Assembly (NCBI GenBank): GCA_020846005.1
Contig: JADLEQ010000070.1
Span: 1 to 64,000 of the forward strand
Source: Polyangiaceae bacterium
GTDB taxonomy: Bacteria; Myxococcota_A; Polyangia; Polyangiales; Polyangiaceae
Direction of reading: 5' to 3'
DNA: 64,000 nucleotides
Part shown: piece by piece, positions 38,596-59,722 of the stretch
Layout of the letters: each line of letters begins with the position of its first letter
Position numbering within the stretch: the first letter of the stretch is position 1
Made by a program: the position numbers and the translations under genes
Notes under the pieces: model-generated
Database searches by the model: none
What the model saw: only the letters and a program-made list of their open reading frames with translations
Told to the model about the DNA's origin: nothing

Positions 38596-39426
38596 TCACG
38601 CCCGCGGCCACAGGACCTCGTTGGCGCCGTCGGGGGGCAGCACGATGCGGATCACCGTCCCGCTCGGCTCGACGCGCTCGACCTGGAGCTCCCCCTCGTG
38701 CGCCTCGGCCACCAGCCGACAGAACGACAGGCCGAGCCCGGTGCGCGCGGTGCGCGCGATCCCGGGGCCGTCGTCGGTCACGGACACCACCAGCGCCCTG
38801 GCGTCGCGCCGCGCCTGGACGATGACCCGCACCCCCGGCGTGCTCGCGCGGAGCGCGTTGTCGACGAGGTTCTCGAGCGCGCGGAGCAGGAGATCGGGGT
38901 CGACGTTGGCCGCGAGCCCCGGGGGCACGCGACCCGAGAGCGTCACGCCGACCGACGCAGCCTGGCGCACGTGGCCGCGGACCAGATCGCCGACCAGCTC
39001 GGCGATCACCGTCGGACGGGGCCGCCCGCGCAGGAATGCGTGGCGGGCGCGCGCCGTGGTCACCGAGTCCCGCGTGATGCGCAGGAGCCGGGCGCAGCTG
39101 TCCCGCGCCTCGTCCACCACGCGGCGGCAGTCCTCCAGCGGCTCGACGCCGAGCTGCTGCGACAGCCACTCCAGATCCGCCAGCACGGCGGCGGCCGCGT
39201 TGCGCGCGTCGTGGAGCGCCTGGACGACGTCGTCCTCCGGGCGACGCTCTGCGATCCAGTTCCCGCTCTCGCGCTCCTCCTCCTGGCGGGGGCGCGGCGC
39301 GGGAACGAGGCTCGGGAGTCCCATCGGATCGAGACGGTGAGCGGCTCGTTCCGGGGGGACTTGAGGCGCCCCGGATCGAAAGTTCTCGCCCCGGCGGCGA
39401 GGGGCGGTCCAGACGCGTCGCGTCAC
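38596..39426 (-). CDS. minimal sensor histidine kinase in the flagellar operon
   Basis: This protein of up to 276 residues has no visible sensor or membrane segment. A dimerisation/phosphoacceptor helix contains VVQALHDARNAAAAVLADLE with the likely phosphorylated His72. The HATPase domain has LLLRALENLVDNALRAS (N box), DDGPGIARTARTGLGLSFCR (G boxes) and ends in GTVIRIVLP. In several polar flagellates a cytosolic kinase such as FlrB/FleS phosphorylates the sigma54 activator FlrC/FleR. Here the only activator in the window lacks a receiver, so the partner is unknown. GTG at 39426 overlaps the flgF stop (GTGA); ATG at 39324 is an alternative with a sigma28-like site just upstream. Confidence 0.75.
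   Translation of the reverse strand: MTRRVWTAPRRRGENFRSGAPQVPPERAAHRLDPMGLPSLVPAPRPRQEEERESGNWIAERRPEDDVVQALHDARNAAAAVLADLEWLSQQLGVEPLEDCRRVVDEARDSCARLLRITRDSVTTARARHAFLRGRPRPTVIAELVGDLVRGHVRQAASVGVTLSGRVPPGLAANVDPDLLLRALENLVDNALRASTPGVRVIVQARRDARALVVSVTDDGPGIARTARTGLGLSFCRLVAEAHEGELQVERVEPSGTVIRIVLPPDGANEVLWPRA
39338..39364 (-). promoter_or_regulatory. weak sigma28-like promoter within or before the kinase gene
   Basis: On the minus strand TCAAGTCC and GCCGCTCA are separated by 11 bp, the FliA spacing (consensus TAAAGTTT-N11-GCCGATAA), with several mismatches. It would start a transcript just before the kinase ATG at 39324. Low confidence. Confidence 0.2.
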
Positions 39427-51540: not shown

Positions 51541-52086
51541 TCATCCTTCGAGGCGCAGGGGGCGTCGGCGTGGGGAGCGAGCGCGGGGATCCTGGGGAGG
51601 CGAGCCGTCGGGTGCGCGGTGCGGACTCGACGAGCGTGGACGAGCAAGACCGGTGCCAGCGTCGGCGCGCGCCAGAAGGGCGACCGCGGTCACCGACGCG
51701 CCGGCGCCGCGCAGGCTCGCCAGCAGCGCGGGGAGCTCGCGCTCGAGGCCCCGCAGGACGTCCGGGCGGGCCTCGATCACCAGGCGATCCAAGCCGTCGC
51801 GCCGCACGAGCGAGATGGTGATCGTCCCGAGCTCGTCGAGCTCGAGGCGGGTCGAGGTCGCCTCGACCGTGGCGTCTCCGTCGGTCGGCGGAGGGGCGCT
51901 CGGGGCCGCCGCGGCTCGGAGCTCCGTCAGGTGGCCGACGCTCTCGTGCCAGCCCGCCGTCAGGCGCGCGGGGGCGGCGGGCAGCGCAAACCCCAGGCGC
52001 TCCGCGGCGTCGGCCAGCGCCTCGGACTCGGCGCGGCGGCGCTCGCCGTCGGGCGGGAGCGCTGGGCGCTCGCGGACGCTCGTCAC
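51541..52086 (-). CDS. fliK: FliK-like hook-length control protein, short
   Basis: FliK measures hook length and triggers the FlhB switch. This 181-residue protein keeps a FliK C-terminal-like segment: STRLELDELGTITISLVRRD, LDRLVIEARPDVLRGLEREL and PALLASLRGAGASVTAVALL. The N-terminal ruler (usually 200-300 residues) is reduced to about 80, so it is much shorter than typical FliK. Assignment depends mainly on position between fliJ and flgD. GTG at 52086 overlaps the fliJ stop. After the FliK-like core the tail is basic and Ser/Pro-rich. Confidence 0.65.
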   Translation of the reverse strand: MTSVRERPALPPDGERRRAESEALADAAERLGFALPAAPARLTAGWHESVGHLTELRAAAAPSAPPPTDGDATVEATSTRLELDELGTITISLVRRDGLDRLVIEARPDVLRGLERELPALLASLRGAGASVTAVALLARADAGTGLARPRSSSPHRAPDGSPPQDPRARSPRRRPLRLEG

Positions 52087-57998: not shown

Positions 57999-58379
57999 TC
58001 AACGACCGTCGCCGGCCGCGTAGGTGAGCTGACGCAGCTCCGCCGAGACGACGGCCGACACCACGTCGAACCGAAGCTGGTTGGCGGCGAGCTTCGCCGC
58101 CTCACGATCCAGCGACACGAAGTTGCCGTCGAGCCCGCCGCCCGCGGCCGGATCCTCGAACACGCGCCCCGCCGTCAGCCCGGCGCCGACGCCGAAGTGC
58201 GCGGCGTGCGTGCGCTCCGGCGTGACCACGCTCGTCGCGGCCTCCGTGCGGGCGAGATCGACGGGCCGGTAGCCAGGTGTGTCGACGTGGGCGACGTTCG
58301 CGGCGAGGAGGTTGTGTCGTTCGATGTGGTAGTCGAGGGCCGCTCCGAGCCCGCTCACCGCAGCGAAGATTTCTGCCAC
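57999..58379 (-). CDS. flgB: flagellar rod protein FlgB
   Basis: FlgB is a proximal rod subunit and the first gene of the long minus-strand flagellar operon. The 126-residue protein shows LGAALDYHIERHNLLAANVA, HVDTPGYRPVDLART and the C-terminal FDVVSAVVSAELRQLTYAAG. The GTG at 58379 lies 13 nt downstream of the -12 element of a sigma54 promoter, so the transcript would be essentially leaderless. GTG at 58358 is an in-frame alternative giving a leader of about 22 nt, without a Shine-Dalgarno sequence. Confidence 0.92.
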   Translation of the reverse strand: MAEIFAAVSGLGAALDYHIERHNLLAANVAHVDTPGYRPVDLARTEAATSVVTPERTHAAHFGVGAGLTAGRVFEDPAAGGGLDGNFVSLDREAAKLAANQLRFDVVSAVVSAELRQLTYAAGDGR

Positions 58380-58390
58380 GGCCGGCCTAA

Positions 58391-58406
58391 AGCATTTGCC
58401 GTGCCG
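58391..58406 (-). promoter_or_regulatory. sigma54 promoter of the flgB operon
   Basis: On the minus strand CGGCACGGCAAATGCT gives GG (58405-58404) and GC (58393-58392) with a 10-bp spacer, close to TGGCACG-N4-TTGCT. The predicted start is about 58380, at the flgB GTG. Candidate activator sites lie 20-140 bp upstream at 58423-58532. Confidence 0.7.
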
Positions 58407-58422
58407 GCCGTTCATCCATCAG

Positions 58423-58442
58423 ACGGGTATCCATCAACCCGT
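58423..58442. promoter_or_regulatory. palindrome A, GGGT-N8-ACCC
   Basis: ACGGGT (58423-58428) and ACCCGT (58437-58442) form a perfect inverted repeat around an 8-nt spacer. It lies in the flgB/activator gap, about 20 bp upstream of the flgB promoter, and shares its core with palindromes B and C. Likely an activator binding site. Confidence 0.6.
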
Positions 58443-58459
58443 GGGTCAGGGGAAACCCA
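58442..58459. promoter_or_regulatory. palindrome B, GGGT-N8-ACCC
   Basis: TGGGT (58442-58446) and ACCCA (58455-58459) are inverted repeats with the same 8-nt spacer as A. Its centre is 18 bp from that of palindrome A, nearly two helical turns. Confidence 0.6.
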
Positions 58460-58514
58460 GGCGAGCAAACACTTCAGATTCAACCACAAACACCGGCGGG
58501 CCAAGTTCTTTTGA

Positions 58515-58532
58515 TGGGTCACTTTTGACCCA
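58515..58532. promoter_or_regulatory. palindrome C, TGGGTCA-N4-TGACCCA
   Basis: This is the strongest copy, with 7-bp perfect arms and the same GGGT-N8-ACCC core (58516-58531). It sits about 42 bp upstream of the activator's own sigma54 promoter. Three further TGGGTTT half sites follow at 58543, 58551 and 58562. Confidence 0.65.
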
Positions 58533-58573
58533 CGCTCTGAGCTGGGTTTCTGGGTTTGCGCTGGGTTTGTCGA

Positions 58574-58591
58574 TGGACCGCGGCTTGCTTA
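58574..58591 (+). promoter_or_regulatory. sigma54 promoter of the activator gene
   Basis: TGGACCGCGGCTTGCTTA has GG (58575-58576) and GC (58587-58588) with a 10-bp spacer, and a perfect TTGCTTA half. The predicted start near 58600 gives a 19-nt leader that contains GGAGGT before the ATG at 58619, unlike the leaderless structural operons. Confidence 0.7.
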
Positions 58592-58618: not shown

Positions 58619-59698
58619 ATGACCGACTTCGCCACCAACGCCGCTCTTCCGCTCTGTGACCTCACTCCGCCGGCCTCGGAGGACGACCGTCGCTCGAGTG
58701 GGGTATTTGCGACCCACCCCTCCCGGCCGGCCTGTATGGGGGCGGTCATCGGGTGCTCCGCGCGGCTGCTCGAGGTGTACGAGATCGTCGATCGGGTGGC
58801 GCGGAGCGAGTGCACGGCGCTGGTGACGGGCGAGAGCGGCACGGGCAAGGAGCTCGTCGCGAGGGCGATCCATGAGGCGAGCGACCGGGCGCGGGGCCCG
58901 TTCGTCGCGGTCAACTGCGGCGCGATCCCGGAGGCCCTGCTCGAGAGCGAGCTGTTCGGTCACGCGCGCGGCGCGTTCACGGGCGCGGTCGCGACCAAGC
59001 AGGGGCGGGTGGCGCAGGCGGCGGGTGGCACGCTGTTCCTCGACGAGGTCGGCGAGCTCCCGCTCGCGCTGCAGGTGAAGCTGCTGCGCGTGCTCCAGGC
59101 GCACGAGTTCTCGCCCATCGGCGACACGAAGGTCCTCCGCGCCGACTGCCGGGTGGTCGCGGCCACCAACGTGGACCTCGAGGCCGCGGTGGCGGAGGGT
59201 TCGTTCCGTGAGGATCTCTACTACCGGCTCGACGTGGTTCGCCTCGAGGTGCCGCCGCTCCGCGAGCGCGTCGAGGACATCCCGCTCCTGGTCGAGCACT
59301 TCCTCGATCGCGCGCGGTCGCGAGTGGGCCGACGCGACGTGGAGGGTATCTCGCCCGCCGCGCTGGACCTCCTGGTGGCGTACGGCTGGCCCGGCAACGT
59401 GCGTGAGCTCGAGAACACCATCGAGCGGGCGCTGCTCCTGGCGCGGGGCCCGCAGATCGAGCCGGGCGACCTCCCGGCACGGGTGAAGGGGCTCGGGTCC
59501 GAGCAGCGCTTCGACACCAAGCTCCCCGAGGTGGGCACGGACCTGCGCCGGGCGGTCGAGAGCTTCGAGAACGGTCTCATCCGGCAGGCGCTCGATCGGA
59601 CGGGCTGGAACAAGAACCGCGCGGCGCGCCTGCTCGGCCTGAACCGCACGACCTTGGTCGAGATGCTGAAGCGCAAGCGCCTGCTCCGCGCGAGCTGA
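58619..59698 (+). CDS. sigma54-dependent flagellar activator without receiver domain
   Basis: This 359-residue protein is a bacterial enhancer-binding protein. The AAA+ domain starts near residue 40 with Walker A GESGTGKE (71-78), the sigma54-contact loop GAFTGA (118-123), Walker B GGTLFLDE (136-143), the arginine-finger region FREDLYYRLDVVRLEVPPLR and the sensor II GWPGNVRELENTIERALLLA. The C-terminal helix-turn-helix is NKNRAARLLGLNRTTLVEML. The first 40 residues carry no receiver, GAF or PAS domain, so no phosphorylation site is visible. Its position divergent from flgB, and its own sigma54 promoter, mark it as the flagellar master or class II regulator (FlrA/FlrC/FleQ-like role). ATG at 58619 has a good GGAGGT. 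Confidence 0.9.
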   Translation: MTDFATNAALPLCDLTPPASEDDRRSSGVFATHPSRPACMGAVIGCSARLLEVYEIVDRVARSECTALVTGESGTGKELVARAIHEASDRARGPFVAVNCGAIPEALLESELFGHARGAFTGAVATKQGRVAQAAGGTLFLDEVGELPLALQVKLLRVLQAHEFSPIGDTKVLRADCRVVAATNVDLEAAVAEGSFREDLYYRLDVVRLEVPPLRERVEDIPLLVEHFLDRARSRVGRRDVEGISPAALDLLVAYGWPGNVRELENTIERALLLARGPQIEPGDLPARVKGLGSEQRFDTKLPEVGTDLRRAVESFENGLIRQALDRTGWNKNRAARLLGLNRTTLVEMLKRKRLLRAS

Positions 59699-59706
59699 CG
59701 CCGGGT

Positions 59707-59722
59707 TGGCCCGCCGCTTGCT
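59707..59722 (+). promoter_or_regulatory. sigma54 promoter before the 59735 gene
   Basis: TGGCCCGCCGCTTGCT has GG (59708-59709) and GC (59720-59721) 10 bp apart and only one mismatch to TGGCACG-N4-TTGCT. The predicted start is about 59733, 2 nt before the ATG at 59735. Confidence 0.65.

Follow-up and report, generated by a model that had tools for sequence, protein, structure and literature searches.

The 239 bp gap between flgB and the neighbouring sigma54 activator gene carries a conserved, clustered and functional operator that did not arise by chance. It consists of three palindromes of the form GGGT-N8-ACCC, and it is marked by their conservation, copy number and geometry, and by their co-occurrence with the HTH of the activator and with sigma54 promoters. 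The palindromes most likely act as an autoregulatory enhancer of the adjacent, receiver-less activator, and would also drive the divergent flgB operon.

The flagellar cluster forms the final part of the 64-kb window (the whole stretch of DNA that was analysed, 64,000 nt), and some of its genes are named by sequence resemblance only. The gene flgB (57999-58379, minus strand) is the first of a long basal body/export operon; its match to TIGR01396 (53.5 bits) is under the cut-off of 59.05, and the operon context is as expected. Its likely GTG start at 58379 has a start-codon spacing that is conserved in relatives. The leftward set after flgB includes flgC, fliF, fliG, fliI, flgD, flgE, flhA, flhF, a FliA-type sigma factor gene, fliW and others. 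Adjoining fliW is the gene of a histidine-kinase-like protein (HATPase_c; 38596-39426, minus strand); the activator itself is without a receiver. Rightward from the activator gene are an outer-membrane protein (OMP) gene, flgG, flgA and flgH and, further on, flgK, flagellin and fliD. A second activator-type paralogue is present in or near the flagellar cluster in G048 (L161), G024 (L152-L153) and G011 (L154-L155).

Two divergent sigma54-type -24/-12 elements are located in the gap, and the palindromes lie between them, in agreement with the initial annotation. The promoter of the flgB operon (58391-58406, minus strand; CGGCACGGCAAATGCT) is conserved in relatives, and that of the activator gene (58574-58589, plus strand; TGGACCGCGGCTTGCT) in most of them. 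Since the flgB start codon is only 11-16 nt past the last -12 base in most relatives examined (11 nt in the window), the flgB transcript is predicted to start 0-5 nt before the start codon, giving a conserved leaderless or near-leaderless message. A further sigma54-type box (59707-59722, plus strand) is found just 3′ of the activator gene, upstream of the OMP and flgG genes, and boxes resembling it also follow the activator gene in relatives. Only 12 nt separate its end from the OMP start codon (ATG), suggesting that the message of the OMP gene is near-leaderless too.

Three perfect GGGT-N8-ACCC palindromes had been described in the gap, and their coordinates proved exact; they are the only copies in the window (58425, 58443 and 58516). 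Site 1 (58425-58440; GGGTATCCATCAACCC) is the flgB-proximal member of a tandem pair and site 2 (58443-58458; GGGTCAGGGGAAACCC) begins 18 bp after it, while site 3 (58516-58531) is the strongest and extends, as had also been described, to a TGGGTCA-N4-TGACCCA sequence, TGGGTCA-CTTT-TGACCCA (58515-58532). Three TGGGTTT half-site-like repeats (58543-58549, 58551-58557 and 58562-58568, plus strand) are likewise present. They are not conserved (2 copies in 26 relative intergenic regions, 0.98 expected), were rejected as conserved elements, and their role is doubtful. An N7-type version of the palindrome, GTGGGGTATTTGCGACCCAC (58697-58716), falls within the early part of the activator coding sequence.

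Genome-wide statements are based on pattern searches, and the matrix scan described below covered the 119-kb contig. How often the motif occurs at random positions, a point raised by the initial annotation, depends on the form considered: a lone GGGT-N8-ACCC dyad is at background in the 5.70-Mb source genome, with 81 copies compared to 73 for a reversed control pattern, but the three-site cluster is not, as only about 9e-5 clusters of three copies in 107 bp are expected genome-wide. The bare dyad therefore shows no genome-wide enrichment and cannot be used to predict a regulon. A tandem pair of dyads (0-30 bp between copies) is found once in the genome, at the flgB/activator gap, and site 3 is the sole genomic match to TGGGTCA-N4-TGACCCA when up to one mismatch is allowed.

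A search of 97 genomes gave relatives of the activator in 36, most of them members of the same family. The discovery set comprised 14 intergenic regions of the family, with the window excluded and with bounds set mostly by the two promoters. All 4-bp dyads with spacers of 0-20 (256 x 21) were counted, using dinucleotide shuffles as the null. GGGT-N8-ACCC ranked first, with 13 copies in 8 of the 14 regions (shuffles: mean 0.09, maximum 1), and the next-ranked dyads include its nested forms GGTC-N6, GTCA-N4 and TGGG-N10. Expectation-maximisation on the relatives' regions only, seeded with the dyad and with the window held out, gave a matrix with the core GGGTCA-N4-TGACCC, or TGGGTCA-N4-TGACCCA in its longer form, the outer GGs holding much of the information. 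On the 119-kb contig, the sites of the window rank first (site 3, score 19.9), second (site 2, 15.2) and fifth (site 1, 11.4) with this matrix. In a replication with 12 further intergenic regions of the family, 11 sites scored at least 11, compared to 0.10 in shuffles, and GGGT-N8-ACCC was again the top dyad. Conservation in relatives, which had been suggested as a check on the motif, is thus strong.

In the regions compared, the motif is typical of the clade of the activator and not universal, because an N8 site is not recognisable in six of the 26 (L020, L022, L023, L179, L183 and L189), where the activator helix is conserved, and none was found upstream of several more distant activators with the helix NRTTLVEM (L275, L276 and L288-L292). 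Some of the six regions without an N8 site contain an N7 variant, and in some relatives GGGT-N7-ACCC exceeds expectation (8 copies compared to 0.17). In Anaeromyxobacter (L125), one GGGTGAAGCATCACCC is present upstream of an activator gene.

The arrangement of the sites is also regular. Neighbouring sites in the family set show a preferred start-to-start distance of 16-22 bp, mostly 18-20 bp; 11 pairs at 16-22 bp were observed, compared to 2.7 expected by random placement, and none of 2000 placements reached 11. In the layout that recurs in relatives, two sites stand in tandem and a third lies closer to the activator. Steps in the window are 18 and 73 bp, followed by 58 bp to the -24/-12 box of the activator gene, and the corresponding values in genus g15 (see below) are 20, 78 and about 58 bp. 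Sites 1, 2 and 3 lie at -52, -70 and -143 relative to the predicted flgB start, and at -167, -149 and -76 relative to the predicted transcription start of the activator gene. The centre of site 1, about -52 from the predicted flgB start, is closer than typical enhancers, which counts against the enhancer reading.

The activator gene (58619-59698, plus strand) encodes a protein of 359 aa with an AAA+ domain that includes GAFTGA, and a Fis-type HTH (NRTTLVEMLKRKRL). The AAA+ sigma54-interaction domain matches PF00158 (E 1.1e-69), with the Walker motif GESGTGKE and GAFTGA both intact in sequence, and the C-terminal Fis-type HTH matches PF02954 (E 1.7e-12). A Pfam scan of the activator detected neither a receiver domain nor the FleQ N-terminal domain (PF06490). 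The stretch ahead of the AAA+ domain is just about 40 residues long and is not conserved, and the N-termini of the relatives are likewise short and unconserved. Among PDB structures, the HTH is matched best by FleQ; the recognition helix, NRTTLVEM, is nearly invariant across the family, and its equivalent in FleQ is RRTTLVEK. Repeated inverted-repeat sites are found upstream of the -24/-12 promoters, and by sequence criteria the activator is a sigma54 enhancer-binding protein (bEBP).

Strong matrix matches within the flagellar clusters of relatives concentrate in the flgB/activator intergenic region, and the motif also accompanies activator-type genes found elsewhere. In G031, such a gene follows fliS, not flgB, with the motif still upstream, and in L203 (G110) the motif stays upstream of an activator-type gene that is apart from flgB. 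In six genomes of genus g15 (L207-L211 and L274), a gene encoding the same HTH (NKNRASRLLGLNRTTLVEMIKRKR) is preceded by three sites and a sigma54 box. Flagellin was not found in these six genomes, and the AAA+ domain of the protein has no GAFTGA loop, so that the site goes with the DNA-binding domain rather than with the flagellar genes or with the activating domain. The g15 protein may be a repressor or a non-flagellar regulator, as a role as activator is unlikely without GAFTGA. The neighbouring activator is most likely the reader of the palindromes, and the enhancer sites envisaged by the initial annotation are supported by the conservation and by the way the motif follows the HTH into genomes without flagellin, with binding itself being predicted.

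Three sites and a sigma54 box face the gene of a FliA-like sigma factor in G124 (g23; L206/L240), where a pilM-like gene adjoins, and in G023 (g23; L237) three sites are found beside a pilM-like gene (motif only). The FliA-like sigma factor gene in G124 is likely to be a further target. On the contig of the window, other sigma54-type boxes near flagellar genes (e.g., near flgD at 51643, and that at 59707) have no strong site nearby, and would therefore need distant action or another activator. Other flagellar promoters of the contig were rejected as direct targets of the motif, since the matrix scan gave no strong sites there; a matrix match at 86880 has no clear context.

From these data we infer that the activator binds the sites, that it activates rather than represses, and that one cluster serves both promoters by looping of a hexamer. 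A dimer of the Fis/FleQ-like HTH would dock on each TGGGTCA-N4-TGACCCA, with two dimers about two helical turns apart on sites 1 and 2, and a third on site 3, nearer the activator promoter. The AAA+ hexamer, once assembled, would touch sigma54-RNA polymerase at both divergent promoters through its GAFTGA loop, and the flgB basal-body/export operon and the gene of the activator itself would thereby be switched on.

The activator could instead bind the sites mainly to repress, by negative autoregulation, with flgB being activated through other contacts. That g15 retains the HTH together with three sites and a sigma54 box, though the AAA+ domain has no GAFTGA, is consistent with this, and several dimers near a promoter can occlude it. 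However, both GAFTGA and the Walker motifs are intact in the activator of the window, transcription from a sigma54 promoter depends on an activator, and the sites are upstream of both promoters and not over either, making repression an unlikely main role. It is similarly improbable that some DNA-binding protein other than the neighbouring activator, be it a further activator or a global regulator, reads the palindromes, the link to the activator being one of genomic proximity only. The cluster includes the histidine kinase gene at 38596-39426, so a second regulator may exist, and some orthologues of the activator are without the motif. Against this, the motif stays with genes of NRTTLVEM-type activators that have parted from flgB, is kept with such genes in genomes without flagellin, and a reader of the FleQ type is indicated by the HTH as well as by the GTCA arms. 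That the palindromes are chance features of an intergenic region in a GC-rich genome, where single dyads are at background, has almost no probability given the conservation (13 copies compared to 0.09), the independent replication (11 compared to 0.10), the spacing and the cluster statistics.

An enhancer bound by the activator has parallels in known systems. The FleQ box of Pseudomonas aeruginosa is GTCAAT-N2-ATTGAC, i.e., GTCA-N6-TGAC (PMC10723142), the FlrA site of Vibrio cholerae is GTCA-N6-TGGC, and the motif of the FleQ/FlrA-like DVU2894 of Desulfovibrio, itself a prediction, is yGTCA-N6-TGACr (PMC4641369). The system described here resembles those of FleQ and FlrA in having an inverted repeat with GTCA/TGAC arms, in several copies in some promoter regions, and a flagellar sigma54 activator with a related Fis-type HTH that includes the RTTLVE helix. 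It differs in that the motif of the window is GTCA-N4-TGAC with strong outer GG/CC, compared to the N6 spacing of the others; GTCA-N6-TGAC occurs once in the 26 relative regions and not at all in the window, and GTCA-N4-TGAC has 9 copies. The initial annotation had not recognised the motif as a known FleQ, FlrA or FlrC site; the spacing is indeed different, but the GTCA...TGAC arms are shared with FleQ. With DVU2894 it shares a predicted autoregulated flagellar sigma54 activator and a conserved inverted repeat upstream of the activator's own gene, but the DVU2894 motif has N6 instead of N4 and no GGG extension.

The protein itself differs from FleQ in the absence of the N-terminal domain and of the LFRS segment, its PACMGAVIG aligning with PNLFRSLVG of FleQ. 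This segment, before the AAA+ domain in FleQ, binds c-di-GMP. Flagellar response regulators of the NtrC/FlrC/FlgR/FlbD type are also AAA+ sigma54 activators with a Fis-type HTH and enhancer sites near flagellar promoters, but they have a receiver domain, which the activator of the window does not. NtrC-like GCACC...GGTGC dyads are absent from the intergenic regions, and none of the FleQ, NorR (GTCA-N3-TGAC), NtrC or TGT-N10-ACA spacings is substantially enriched in them. PspF is similar in having no N-terminal regulatory domain, and in both cases a partner protein or abundance presumably sets the activity, but PspF has other targets and another regulon. Because the activator is without the FleQ N-terminal domain, the LFRS segment and a receiver, and because the spacing is N4, it is not classified as FleQ, FlrA or FlrC. 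This kind of system is known, and what is new is the motif, together with its likely reader and its distribution; no report of a TGGGTCA-N4-TGACCCA motif was found in the literature searched, which covered only a minority of subscription journals.

A broader reading, which is possible but decidedly tentative, would combine these features: a receiver-less flagellar master activator with one shared three-dimer enhancer for its own gene and flgB, forming a positive-feedback switch set by abundance; an HTH/site module that is kept, with GAFTGA lost, as a non-flagellar autoregulator in a flagellin-less genus; and a flgB message that is leaderless across the family. No earlier operator sequence for a flagellar sigma54 activator of this group appears in the literature searched, and the present one makes the flagellar regulon predictable throughout the family. 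The motif links the HTH variant NRTTLVEM to a half-site close to that of FleQ, with two bp less between the arms, a testable step of divergence. The flagellin-less genus g15, which has kept the helix and the sites but not GAFTGA, represents a natural experiment in domain separation.
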